From Gordonia sp. X0973 (GTDB taxonomy: Bacteria; Actinomycetota; Actinomycetes; Mycobacteriales; Mycobacteriaceae), in contig NZ_CP054691.1 in NCBI RefSeq assembly GCF_013348785.1, positions 1,426,001 to 1,490,000 of the forward strand: a stretch of DNA of 64,000 nt, read 5' to 3'. This document shows positions 50,784-54,900 of the stretch, piece after piece. Each line of letters opens with the position of its first letter. The stretch's first letter is position 1. Made by a program: the position numbers and the translations under genes. The notes beneath the pieces are model-generated. The model saw only the letters and a list, made by a program, of their open reading frames with translations, did not search any database and was not told where the DNA came from.

Positions 50784-51497
50784 ATGGCTGCATCGGACCG
50801 CGACCCCGCGGCACTGCTCTCGTCGCTCGGCATCACCGTCGACGACGATCTGCTGACCCTGGCGCTGACGCACCGCTCCTACGCCTATGAGAACGGCGGT
50901 TTGCCGACGAACGAGCGGCTGGAGTTCCTCGGCGACTCGGTGCTCGGCGTCGTCGTCACCGAGAAGCTGTATCGCGACTACCCGGACCGCCCGGAGGGGG
51001 AGCTGGCCAAGATCCGCGCCAGCGTCGTCAACGGGCAGGCCCTGGCGCGTCTGGCGCGCACCTTGGGGCCGGGCGGACTCGGTCGGCACCTGTACCTCGG
51101 CCGTGGCGAGGAGATGACCGGCGGCCGCGACAAGGACAGCATCTTGGCCGACGGGATGGAGGCGCTGCTCGGCGCGGTGTACCTGGAGCACGGGTTCGAA
51201 CCCGCGAAGAAGGTGATCCTCAAGCTGTTCAGCGACGCGGTTGCCGATGCCGGGCGGCTCGGAGCCGGGCTGGACTGGAAGACCTCGCTGCAGGAGCTGT
51301 CCGCGGCGCGCTCGCTTGGCCCGCCGTCGTACTCCATCACCTCCACCGGTCCAGACCACGACAAGGAGTTCACCGCGACGGCCATCGTCGGCGGGGAGGA
51401 ACTCGGCAGCGGAGTCGGGCGCTCCAAGAAGGAGGCCGAGCAGGTCGCCGCCGAGGAGGCGTGGAAGGTGCTCGACGCGAGGCAGGAGGGTGCCTGA
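50784..51497 (+). CDS. rnc: Ribonuclease III
   Basis: 237 residues. Endonuclease domain with signature [13 protein letters not shown] and the second metal site [15 protein letters not shown], then a C-terminal double-strand RNA binding domain (about 163-232: [20 protein letters not shown], then [16 protein letters not shown]). It processes rRNA precursors. Only six bases after the DUF177 gene, and its stop overlaps the mutM start region. Confidence 0.97.
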
Positions 51498-52395
51498 GCT
51501 TCCCGAAGTCGAGACGGTTCGGCTCGGCGTAGAGAAGCACGTCATCGGTGCGACGTTCACCGGTGTCCAGGTACACCACGACCGGGCCGTCCGACGCCAG
51601 GTCGGGGGAGCGGCCGCACTCGTCGGTCGGCTGCGCGGGACGACCGCGGTCGCGGCCCGGCGACGCGGCAAATACCTGTGGCTCGAACTCGCGGATCCTT
51701 CGGGCGTCGTCGACGAGGCGCTGGTCATCCACCTCGGTATGAGCGGGCAGCTGCGGATCGTCGACGAGGACAAGCCGGCGGGGGAGACCAAGCACCTGCG
51801 CATCCGCTCCGAGCTGATCGGGGCCGACGGCGGCCCGAGTGAGTTCTGGTTCGTCGACCAGCGGACCTTCGGCGGCTGGCAGGTCGACGACCTGGTGCCC
51901 GATCTCCATTCGCTGGGACGGTCGGTGCCGTCGATCATTGCTCATATCGCGCCGGACCCGTTCGACGAGGCTTACGACGCGGAGAGAGTCGCGGGGGTTA
52001 TGCGCCGCAAGCACACCGAGGTCAAACGTGCGCTGCTCGACCAGTCGCTGGTCTCGGGCATCGGCAACATCTACGCCGACGAGGCGCTCTGGCGGGCGCG
52101 CCTGCGCGGCACGAGGCTCACCGATTCGATCTCGAAGGTCAAGCTGGTGGAACTGCTCGGTCACGCGCGGGCCGTGATGGACGAGGCGCTGGCCGTGGGT
52201 GGTAGCTCGTTCGACGAACTGTATGTGAACGTCAACGGCGAGTCGGGGTATTTTTCCCGATCTCTTGACGTTTATGGCCGGGCTGGGGCGCCGTGCAATC
52301 GGTGTGGAGCACCGATTGCACGCGAGCAGTTCATGAATCGCTCCAGTCACTTTTGCCCGCGTTGTCAGCGGAGTTCATCGACGCCAGGCGTCTGA
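51490..52395 (+). CDS. mutM: MutM/Fpg formamidopyrimidine-DNA glycosylase with exchanged 3' end
   Basis: 301 residues from a GTG overlapping rnc by eight bases. Catalytic P2-E3 (PELPEVE), HLGMSGQLR, the helix-two-turn-helix around [12 protein letters not shown] and a C-terminal zinc finger with four Cys (CNRCG, CPRCQ). It removes 8-oxoguanine and formamidopyrimidines. From about 52246 the codons turn abruptly AT-rich (TAT TTT TCC CGA TCT CTT), while a GC-rich alternative end of the same gene lies at 54025-54183. The reading frame and zinc finger are intact, so the hybrid protein should work. Confidence 0.93.
52330..52341. repeat. Direct repeat in mutM end, left copy
   Basis: TTCATGAATCGC, encoding FMNR of the zinc finger. 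The same 12 bases are at 54109-54120. Possible crossover core, or simple codon conservation. Confidence 0.6.
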
Positions 52396-52445
52396 TGGTC
52401 GAGGTGTTCCGCTCCTATCGGGCGCTCGTGTGCGTGGACAAGATG

Positions 52446-53444
52446 TTAGGCGGCCATCTTCGCACCCTTGGCGCGGTTGCAACGCCAGCACAGCGTCTGA
52501 AGGTTCTCGGGCTCGCTGAGGCCTCCCTTGGACACCGGCACGATGTGATCAACTTCGAGGAGCAGGTTCGGCTCGACGGCGACCGAGACGCCGCATGCGG
52601 GGTTCTGACAGGTATGGTCATCACGATCCTTGATCCAGCCGCGTAAGCGGGCGGTCATCAGCGCCCGCTGACCGGCGGCCGACTTCGACCAGCGAATCTT
52701 CTGCGCGAGTGTTTCCGAGAGAGCGTCGAGGGTCGGGGTATTCAGGTCGATATTCACCGTCTGGCCGCTGTTGCCACCGGCGGAGACGTACTGGAACTTG
52801 TAGTTCGGATAGGGCACCGTTATCGGCGAGAGGTGCACGCCGACGAAGATCCAGAACTCGTCCGCGTACCGCTGGAGGATGAACGCGGGCGGGTTGATCA
52901 TTGCTGCAATTTCTGCCTCGCGGCGCTGCACGTTGGCGACGGCCTCTTCTAGTCGCGAGATGTCCTCGGCCACCCGCTGCACGTCGGCCAGCGTCTCTTG
53001 GTTCGCTTTGATCTCAAAGTACTTCATCAGGTACTTGATCGGATCCATGCTCGCGTTGCGCACCACCTGCAGCGACGCGTTATGGACGTGCGGCGCGTAC
53101 TCGGCCACGTTGCGGTTGCGCTGATAGTTCCAGCTCGAAGTGTTCTCGAACGTCGCGAGGTGAGCGTACTGCCCGGTGGAGGACGTGCCCAGCTCGAAGG
53201 CACCCCGTCCGCGAATCTCCGCGACGTAGTTCACGACCTCGTTGTGCTCGGCAACGACGGAGGCAATCTGAGCGCGGAGCCCTTGGAACTCTTCACTGTT
53301 GAAGTACTTGTTCTTCCGGTGCTTCCAGATGATCGGATTCGCGATCAGCACCCCGGCGAGGACGAGAATGAACAGGATCGGATGGATCGAGCCGAAAAGG
53401 AGTGGCAACGTAATGACTAACGTGATGAAGAGCCACTTGGGCAT
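52446..53444 (-). CDS. Membrane-anchored HNH endonuclease
   Basis: 332 residues with AGGAG before the ATG. Two N-terminal hydrophobic segments (about 3-40), a soluble middle with a coiled coil (about 150-190), and a C-terminal HNH domain (about 275-332): CQNPACG, the L-EVDHIVPVSKGG core, N-LQTLC and CWRCN, with zinc-binding Cys pairs. The catalytic DH and N are present. HNH enzymes nick or cut DNA, and membrane-tethered forms occur in phage defence. Carried by the mutM insertion, it could be a defence cargo or take part in spread. Substrate unknown. Confidence 0.8.
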   Translation of the reverse strand: MPKWLFITLVITLPLLFGSIHPILFILVLAGVLIANPIIWKHRKNKYFNSEEFQGLRAQIASVVAEHNEVVNYVAEIRGRGAFELGTSSTGQYAHLATFENTSSWNYQRNRNVAEYAPHVHNASLQVVRNASMDPIKYLMKYFEIKANQETLADVQRVAEDISRLEEAVANVQRREAEIAAMINPPAFILQRYADEFWIFVGVHLSPITVPYPNYKFQYVSAGGNSGQTVNIDLNTPTLDALSETLAQKIRWSKSAAGQRALMTARLRGWIKDRDDHTCQNPACGVSVAVEPNLLLEVDHIVPVSKGGLSEPENLQTLCWRCNRAKGAKMAA

Positions 53445-54021
53445 CCGTGTTTCTCCTAAGTAGAGCTATGTTTTCGTCCGTGACGTCTGCTCCCAGAATA
53501 TAGAGCACCTCCGACAAAGTTGGGGTGTCATCGTCCGCTGATCTGGTGCACTCCGGTGCGGGGCCGGTCTGCTGGCGGACTCTGGCCGTGAGGGCCCCTC
53601 GGGCGCGCTAGGGGCGATGCGACGTGCGTCGATCATCTGATCAGCTTCATACGGGCGCTGCGGACCAGGTTCGTCTTGGTTTGCCGTGGGTCGCGGATCT
53701 CGTGCTCGCCAAGCCGGACCAGGTAGCCCGGCGGAGCTACCTGCTCTCGACGTGGCTGATCGAAGTTCGGCCGGCGGCGACTGACGCGGCACCACTCGCC
53801 ACCTGGCAGCGGGTTGTCGACGCTCTGGTCGTCGCAGGCGACTCGCAGCTGGCGCCCTACTCGGAGTAGCCCGGCACACTCCGCCGCGCGGTACGGCAGC
53901 CACCCCGCGAGAACGCACGCCGGTTCCACATGTTTGTCCGTCGTGCTCTGTCGATTGAGCTAGTCCGCGTTTTCGGCCATGGTCGGACAAACGTGGGCAT
54001 CAATGTCAGATGGTGCTCAAG
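53445..54021. other. Right part of the insertion, no intact gene
   Basis: About 580 bases between the HNH gene and the displaced mutM end. It contains a possible gene remnant at 53624-53869 and a nine-base inverted repeat, GTTTGTCCG (53932-53940) and CGGACAAAC (53984-53992). Nothing else was recognised. Confidence 0.5.
53624..53869 (+). pseudogene. Possible C-terminal gene remnant
   Basis: An 81-codon frame ending WQRVVDALVVAGDSQLAPYSE with protein-like composition and GC-rich third positions. It has no ribosome site and looks like the end of a larger protein. Family not recognised. It may be a relic of an earlier insertion. Confidence 0.3.
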
Positions 54022-54024
54022 TCC

Positions 54025-54183
54025 GGCTACTTCGCCCGCTCCTTGAATGCCTACGGTCGTGAAGGCCGGCCCTGCTACCGCTGCGGCTCGACCATGCGAC
54101 GCGAGTCATTCATGAATCGCAGCTCGTTCTATTGTCCAAGTTGTCAGCGACCGCCGAGACGGCTGGCGGAGCCCGCTTGGTAG
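54025..54183 (+). pseudogene. Displaced original 3' end of mutM
   Basis: Encodes 52 residues, [21 protein letters not shown] through [16 protein letters not shown] to a stop. It aligns without gaps with the end of the intact MutM ([21 protein letters not shown] through [13 protein letters not shown]), with four zinc Cys. The codons are GC-rich like the rest of mutM. No start codon or glycosylase domain is attached. It is best explained as the former end of mutM pushed downstream by the insertion. Confidence 0.85.
54109..54120. repeat. Direct repeat in mutM end, right copy
   Basis: TTCATGAATCGC, the partner of 52330-52341. A further shared ten bases, GTTGTCAGCG, lie at 52361 and 54140, again 1,779 bp apart. 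Confidence 0.6.
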
Positions 54184-54191
54184 CGGGTCGG

Positions 54192-54557
54192 TCAGGACGA
54201 GCGGCCAATCTCGCCCACCTCGTTGATGAACAGCATGAACCGCGCGTTACTTCGAACGCTTTGAATGAGCAGCCACCCCCAGAGATTCCCCAGCCCGGGC
54301 AGCCACCGGAGAATGGTCTCCTTCCGTCGCGCACCATCGGGGCGATGGTCGACCTCGACCAGGTAGGGGTTGATCCAGCGGACCTTTGCCCCGCGCGCGA
54401 TCTCGCGCTGCACCGCCGCGGCCATCGCCCGGGTGCGTTCCTGTTCTGACCAACCCTGTCGCCGGTCGCCGGTCCAGGCATGTCCGTCCCACCACGAGTA
54501 CCAGCCCGGTTCTCCCGAGCGGCTCGAATACCATCCCGCCGCAGCCGTTTTCGTCAC
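54192..54557 (-). CDS. DUF2510-like protein
   Basis: 121 residues from the GTG at 54557 (AGGGGA upstream). The N-terminus has the GWYSSRSGEPGWYSWWDGHAWT pattern similar to DUF2510 (Gly-Trp-Tyr, Trp-Trp-Asp-Gly, Trp-Thr), then a helical, basic region and a strand-rich part (VRWINPYLVEVDHRPDG), ending with an amphipathic segment. DUF2510 is a small domain common in actinobacterial membrane-linked proteins, function unknown. It is convergent with the displaced mutM end, nine bases away, and may have been the host neighbour of mutM or part of the incoming DNA. Confidence 0.6.
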   Translation of the reverse strand: MTKTAAAGWYSSRSGEPGWYSWWDGHAWTGDRRQGWSEQERTRAMAAAVQREIARGAKVRWINPYLVEVDHRPDGARRKETILRWLPGLGNLWGWLLIQSVRSNARFMLFINEVGEIGRSS

Positions 54558-54900
54558 CGTTTCCCCTGCGTTGTCGCCGCCCGCTGACCCTCGGTGCGAT
54601 TGCCCACGTCGATGGTCGCGGTGCGCACCATGCCTCTTCGACGCTCGTTCGTCGTTTTCGATGACGACGCTAGGGTCCGGTTCTCTCCTTGGCAATGGGT
54701 AGAACTCTCCGTCCAGAGCGCGAACGGTACGGTGCGGTTTCGACATCGTCAGCCACCTGGTCTTCTACGTTGAGAGCGCAGAGGGCGTCGATGTGGTCAG
54801 AATCCTGCACCAGCGCATGGATCCGACGCGGCACCTCTGATTGCCTCGACCCGAGACACTCGAGGAATGCCGCCGGACCCGGCACGTGTTGAATAGGACC
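54558..54900. other. Intergenic region before osmC
   Basis: About 340 bases. A minus-strand frame at 54670-54885 (71 codons) has some protein-like composition but no ribosome site or family match. I see no confident gene, terminator or promoter. Confidence 0.4.

Follow-up and report, generated by a model that had tools for sequence, protein, structure and literature searches.

How does a bacterial chromosome come to carry two 3′ ends of a single DNA-repair gene? The question is raised by mutM of Gordonia sp. X0973, which is followed by a second copy of its own end. The locus lies in a stretch of 64,000 nucleotides (contig NZ_CP054691.1, positions 1,426,001 to 1,490,000), referred to here as the window, of a genome that consists of one contig of 3.75 Mb (G000 in our numbering). 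A preliminary description of this DNA, made from its letters alone, proposed that an element had entered mutM with its own replacement 3′ end and had displaced the old one. This proposal is borne out by empty sites in relatives, by the foreign character of the present end, and by the same joint in nine of 59 Gordonia genomes, the window included. We consider it quite probable that the segment 52243–54021 derives, with loss of the integrase, from a family of elements that encode a large serine recombinase (LSR) and insert into mutM with replacement of its 3′ end. Such a serine-integrase insertion is the best reading because two LSR-bearing elements occupy the same joint, the rebuilt attachment sites of these two carry inverted repeats centred on a GG dinucleotide, the window's right arm resembles their arms, and public MutM proteins show swapped ends.

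The two 3′ ends of mutM

The whole gene (51490–52395, + strand) starts with GTG and encodes N-terminal, H2TH, and zinc-finger domains (Pfam). Its host-borne part, codons 1–251 up to ...NGE (51490–52242, + strand; Pfam Fapy_DNA_glyco and H2TH), would represent the left half of the bacterial attachment site (attB). The present 3′ end, comprising the last 50 codons and assigned as the element-borne replacement and also a left attachment-site half (52243–52395, + strand), begins with SGYF and contains four zinc-finger cysteines and the stop codon at 52393–52395, so the gene is intact with a complete zinc finger, as first described. The displaced original end (54022–54183, + strand; zf-FPG_IleRS, E 2.7e-5) is in frame, lacks the rest of the gene, and is contained in a 57-codon reading frame at 54010–54183. 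In the whole-genome search, it showed 64% identity to mutM codons 251–295 (E 2.2e-14). A gap-free alignment places the two ends exactly 1,779 bp apart, in agreement with the preliminary description, and the similarity sets in abruptly at the AGTC/SGYF joint. AGTC is present at both joints, as had been reported; the joint pattern, allowing up to two mismatches, has four matches in the window, and only those at the two mutM joints have zero or one mismatch. Between the ends, we observed an HNH gene plus 577 bp without a convincing gene, and a promoter/terminator scan gave no signal above chance.

The preliminary description had also contrasted an AT-rich present end with a GC-rich displaced one and called for the codon usage of both. 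The GC content at third codon positions (GC3) is 0.85 in mutM codons 1–251, where the lowest value of any 50-codon stretch is 0.76, versus 0.56 in the present end and 0.72 in the displaced end. "AT-rich" therefore fits the present end, while the displaced end is merely moderately GC-rich.

Two close relatives, G040 and G006 (G. araii), have a single mutM end at the locus and represent empty sites. Their mutM continues directly into an end with 87% protein identity to the window's displaced end and 67–69% to its present end, as had been predicted in kind; not all relatives, therefore, keep both ends. The displaced end falls with those of G040 and G006 (SH-aLRT 93) in a tree built from 67 ends. 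Closest to the present end are the rows of G010 and G011 rather than G040/G006, and the smallest drawn group that includes it comprises seven rows with a support of 88. Strong branches are few in this tree (6 of 64 inner ones starred); the third end of G011, the second end of G055, and the main end of G057 (unaligned to the joint) were left out; and its "element-type" labels were assigned after the sequences had been read, which makes the label shuffle test partly circular. In the core tree, the window's host-borne part clusters with four close relatives, with G010 close to G000 and G011 far off. The mutM ends and cores thus yield conflicting trees. At the DNA level, the window's present end is 82% identical to the G011 end over 125 bp, whereas overall identity to the G011 MutM is 66%. 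The core tree gives no firm order of branching among the five close relatives, so that a single old insertion shared by G000 and G010 is compatible with it.

Serine recombinases and attachment sites at the shared joint

A whole-genome search for second mutM ends in the 59 genomes identified nine clean cases that begin at the same SGYF joint (G000, G007, G009, G010, G011, G014, G047, G052, and G057). Apart from the window, 13 genomes have a second end of any kind: eight clean ones, three partial ones, and two longer copies. The partial ends are those of G055 and, as weak matches absent from the whole-genome search, G023 (26 residues) and G056 (20 residues); the longer copies are found in G002 and G051. 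We surveyed the spacing between the mutM core and osmC in 57 genomes, G000 and G005 being set apart. A distance of at most 900 bp without a second end was found in 24, a second end in 11 (partial and longer copies counted), and a longer gap without a second end in 15; osmC was not reached in seven, among them G047 and G052. The G005 contig stops ~600 bases past mutM and lay outside the loci analysis, and the G031 locus was covered in part. In G047, the two mutM ends lie on separate contigs, and osmC follows the displaced end as expected. In G017, G036, and G045, which have element-type main ends, no displaced end was found and osmC was not reached, so that its loss there is uncertain.

Further mutM copies were observed in the same set. 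Locus L038 (G057) carries a full-length decayed extra mutM and L039 (G002) a 5′-truncated one, both close to the insertion site and indicative of additional recombination events outside the SGYF joint. Another contig of G011 has an additional mutM-end match (G011:C39:21631-21783; 51% over 51 residues). In Williamsia muralis, ~9 kb separate mutM and osmC (L125:10870-19725), and no second mutM end was found there.

An LSR gene stands beside the displaced end in two of the nine clean cases, G052 and G047, with its start codon 42 and 41 nt from the joint, respectively. The two proteins (470–486 aa) possess Resolvase and Recombinase domains and are 64% identical. The G052 element, with mutM ends ~22 kb apart on one contig, additionally encodes relaxase, NikA-like, coupling-protein, DUF5906/D5-like, and HTH_17 genes. 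Its displaced end is itself element-type (L037:3052-4825), and another partial end follows 1.7 kb further on, so that elements seem to have piled up at this mutM. The remaining 57 Gordonia genomes contain a single comparably close match, a 130-residue LSR fragment at a contig end of G043 (59%; the rest ≤45%); near the more distant LSRs of G006 and G003 (41–45%), no mutM end was seen within 1.5 kb flanks. Phage and plasmid records contained no LSR of at least 60% identity, and viral contigs no LSR relative. The best phage relative was from Mycobacterium phage Kumao (31% identity), and all 494 matching phage records were below 60%.

The window segment itself contains no recombinase that we could find, as the preliminary description had stated. 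The LSR domain PF07508 has no match anywhere in the window genome at E ≤ 0.01, in a search that was positive in G047 and G052, and an LSR query that detects G047 found none in this genome. The segment also has no relaxase or transfer gene, and the only gene above the curated domain cut-off is the HNH gene. Of the features that define an LSR element, the window displays left and right attachment halves that trace to a definite attB, which is empty in relatives, and an encoded LSR was not found. The window's copy behaves like such an element and probably descends from one, although it is incomplete.

In both LSR-bearing elements, the attachment sites rebuilt from the two arms form inverted repeats with the GG of TCsGG at their centre (G052, 16/30 pairs; G047, 15/30 pairs). 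The corresponding peak lies one base further in G000 (15/30), G010 (14/30), and G011 (15/30). The crossover probably occurs at this GG, which in the window corresponds to 52246–52247 (+ strand) at the left joint, with 54025–54026 as its partner.

The right arm of the window's element (53958–54021, + strand), the attachment-site half adjoining the displaced end, is 95% identical over 64–65 bp to the right arm of G014 (G. hirsuta), with no match further left. With significance assessed by 5,000 shuffles, it also resembles the arms of G052 (28/45; 0 of 5,000) and G047 (23/45; p 0.0004). A 69-base right arm matched only G000 and G014 among 401 evenly drawn family genomes, and no copy was detected in phage, plasmid, or viral-contig records (viral scan exact match only). 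At the position corresponding to the LSR gene start of G052 and G047, the arm holds a six-codon frame, MAENAD-stop (53960–53980, − strand), whose start codon lies 42 nt from the joint. A start codon at 41–43 nt from the joint is present in five of the seven LSR-less arms, and in both G000 and G014 the frame that it opens ends after six codons. Judged by its position, the frame is a probable fossil of the lost LSR gene. It suggests that the window's cassette is a deletion derivative, which is the most likely origin of this copy.

End swaps were also evident in public MutM proteins. Our set comprised 120 listed of 7,988 matches, the window's own included, and 112 of these have the SGYF motif. 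Among the matches listed, 362 of 6,216 pairs have cores at least 88% identical, and in 25 of these the ends are <75% identical. P0162 and P0168, for example, are 99.6% identical in the core and 68% in the end; further swap pairs are P0145/P0148, P0126/P0127, P0132/P0135, P0136/P0147, and P0169/P0199, where P0199 is from Williamsia. Across the six pairs, differences past the joint begin at +4, and the closest on its other side is at −17, leaving the 16 residues ahead of the joint without a difference (indels were not scored as differences). The P0147 end equals the displaced end of G011 over the 45 residues compared. These proteins come without DNA context, and insertion is therefore what we infer in their case. 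The near-identical cores suggest recent events among these swaps. For the window's own copy, the recent insertion assumed in the preliminary description is not supported.

In the mechanism that we propose, the LSR would cut mutM at the SGYF codons, with the probable GG crossover, and integration would join the host's 251 codons to the complete in-frame 3′ end of the element. MutM would retain a complete zinc finger, with its former end pushed downstream. The window copy would subsequently have lost the recombinase gene and any transfer genes, leaving the replacement end, one HNH gene, and a right arm in which only the start codon of the former LSR gene survives.

Cargo genes and competing explanations

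The cargo of the window's cassette is an HNH endonuclease gene (52446–53444, − strand; 332 aa; PF01844, E 2.6e-12, and PF14279), the product of which has a hydrophobic helical N-terminus. The structure model shows the N-terminal helices and is poor overall (mean pLDDT 55.6, pTM 0.39), and PADLOC profiles cover only the HNH part (residues 246–330 at most). A search at E ≤ 1e-10 yielded 2,666 relatives of the protein. One of them, 90% identical, is in Glutamicibacter, an actinobacterium of another order, which indicates that the HNH gene itself travels widely. A copy with 89.5% identity occupies the same place in G010, the only other member of this HNH family among the fetched mutM loci. Between G000 and G010, synonymous divergence (dS) is 0.55 for the HNH gene, 0.59 for osmC and acyP, 0.75 for the new mutM end, 0.80 for rnc, and 0.98 for the mutM core; the smc row was misaligned and not used. 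We therefore did not accept the similarity of the two HNH genes as proof of recent transfer, their dS being barely under that of osmC and acyP.

The contents between the ends at the shared joint are mostly unrelated across the nine genomes. Among the clean LSR-less cassettes, we identified PDC-S06 (G011), SIR2 and HerA (G057), ParDE (G009), a nucleotidyltransferase (G007), and, in G014, a 98-aa frame with no family match. The less clean sites carry a DzbA-like gene (G055) and a type IIG-like restriction system (G002). By its company and type, the HNH gene is probably a defence gene as well, kept by selection.

Two further features lie past the displaced end in the window. A 184-aa open frame (54192–54746, − strand) matches no Pfam family up to E 0.1 and nothing among the fetched mutM loci. 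Just before osmC, the C-terminal half of a ParE toxin gene remains as a relic (54703–54837, + strand; 59% identity to the G009 ParE), where a ParDE pair is found in G040.

Several observations weigh against insertion by an LSR followed by loss of its gene. Recombination itself was not observed, and the data include neither a circular form nor a same-species pair of empty and filled DNA for the window copy. A second centre in G052 scores equally (16/31), the stated centre in G010 ties with another, G009, G014, and G057 have no standout inverted-repeat peak at the expected centre, and the average of all eight elements peaks at a centre other than 4.5 or 5.5. Compared with the G052 arm, those of G009 and G057 on the right side match no better than chance (16/45 and 14/45, respectively). 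The G011 and G007 arms have no start codon at 41–43 nt, and other offsets carry start codons too. Comparison of nine LSR-less interiors revealed no LSR relic beyond the start codon and no convincing common element backbone. Furthermore, G000 and G010 are alike in the left end and the HNH gene and unlike to the right of that gene, a pattern for which one simple insertion does not account. The longer second mutM copies in G002 and G051 and the full-length decayed one in G057 imply that other recombination occurs here too.

The last of these observations, together with the near likeness of the main and second ends in G007, could also be expected if tandem duplication or recombination between mutM genes, one of which then decayed, had left the extra end. 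In the window, G010, G011, and G014, however, the second copy begins exactly at SGYF behind a non-mutM arm (24–42/45 alike), and the main end differs in type from the displaced one. For the window, this shared arm and foreign main end contradict a decayed full second mutM or nei gene behind the displaced end, and we regard such an origin as very unlikely. Still more improbable is homing by the HNH enzyme, in which the nuclease would cut mutM and the element would be copied in with conversion of the flanking 3′ end. Free-standing homing nucleases do convert flanks, and the HNH gene lies inside the segment, at the same place in G000 and G010. However, genomes in which this HNH was not found at the site show the same joint and end replacement, a displaced second end would be an unexpected product of homing, and the nearest HNH relatives in G001 and G039 (57–61% identical, the G039 copy broken) lie away from mutM. 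The preliminary description had named the HNH enzyme as one possible mover. We reject it in this role, since most insertions at the joint were found without this HNH: the gene is absent from the mutM loci fetched for 12 of the 13 other second-end genomes (the G047 interior was partly covered), and an LSR gene stands beside the displaced end in G052 and G047.

The other mover considered at the outset, a trans-acting enzyme, is possible in principle, and none of the LSR kind was found in the window genome. A resident LSR acting in trans there was accordingly discarded as a candidate. In a broader form, the small integrase-less cassettes would be true non-autonomous units, moved in trans by the LSRs of other elements and spreading defence or toxin–antitoxin genes between species, with the ends as their sole common part. 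We regard this as a tentative alternative, less likely than not to be correct, to the deletion of an LSR gene. LSR-less cassettes outnumber LSR-bearing ones by 7 to 2 among the clean cases. The nine LSR-less interiors have in common (blastn), ends aside, only the HNH gene of G000 and G010 and a mutM piece of G002 and G057. G010 and G011 are 94% identical over 126 bp of the left end and differ in cargo, and the nearly identical right arms of G000 and G014, over 64 bp with the same six-codon stop and a near-identical break point, accompany MutM proteins only ~62% identical. Conversely, no LSR domain was found in G009, G010, G014, or G057 either (those of G007 and G011 lie elsewhere), the start-codon fossil favours descent from an LSR element by deletion, and homologous recombination between the ends could equally move the parts. 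It is conceivable, and at present a doubtful proposition, that Gordonia and its close relatives harbour an SCC-like mutM cassette system, in which small integrase-less units, each with one defence or toxin–antitoxin locus between conserved ends, are moved in trans by the serine recombinases of other elements and reshuffle the DNA-binding zinc finger of MutM across species.

Relation to known systems

Insertion by an LSR would make mutM a natural serine-integrase target at which integration swaps a functional domain rather than breaking the gene. This would explain mosaic MutM proteins in public databases and mark the site as one at which to look for defence genes. Cassettes without an integrase offer a clear test for non-autonomous passengers of serine-integrase elements, and the LSR and its sites may serve as a tool in actinobacteria.

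In our literature search, no mutM attachment site for an LSR appeared among the matches listed, from which subscription papers and supplements were absent; in the available portion of PMC13310844, mutM is merely a typing locus. The LSR catalogue of Durrant et al. 2022 likewise derives elements with predicted attachment sites and target genes from genome comparison, as far as its main text describes (PMC10083194). That main text does not contain mutM, glycosylase, or Gordonia, and the tables of its supplements, which lie beyond this scope, may hold mutM. The serine integrases of actinobacteriophages and mycobacterial prophages are proteins of the same kind, and the main texts of the mycobacterial prophage literature searched, supplements aside, do not mention mutM. 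SpyCI in streptococcal mutL is, in the part of PMC4129442 available, similarly a mobile island in a DNA-repair gene; it enters the 5′ end of mutL and causes a mutator phenotype, whereas mutM here stays whole.

Islands in the 3′ end of trmE or the 5′ end of dusA share the precise insertion into the end of a conserved gene, as far as the accessible sources describe them. Such islands rebuild the gene they enter and use tyrosine recombinases, whereas the recombinase at mutM is of the serine type.

The closest likeness is to the SCC/ECC elements. The housekeeping gene rlmH, which they enter, remains functional after SCC insertion. The portions of PMC6222049 consulted describe large serine recombinases (CcrAB), the 3′ region of rlmH as target, inverted repeats at the attachment sites, site remnants, and defence cargo, and an SCC derivative without recombinase genes is recorded in the text available from PMC3637587. 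Neither ccrAB nor insertion in rlmH was found in the window, where the target is mutM and no recombinase was detected, so these elements serve as an analogue only. The mutM elements differ in the host group, in the target, and in having a single LSR of 470–486 aa (not aligned with CcrAB). Additionally, the mutM crossover lies ~50 codons inside the gene, and the whole zinc-finger domain is replaced. By analogy with SCC/ECC, the proposed mechanism is ordinary in kind, namely serine-integrase insertion with gene restoration. What sets it apart is the mutM target, which we did not find in the literature searched, the domain-sized exchange, and the integrase-less cassettes, mostly with defence or toxin–antitoxin genes.

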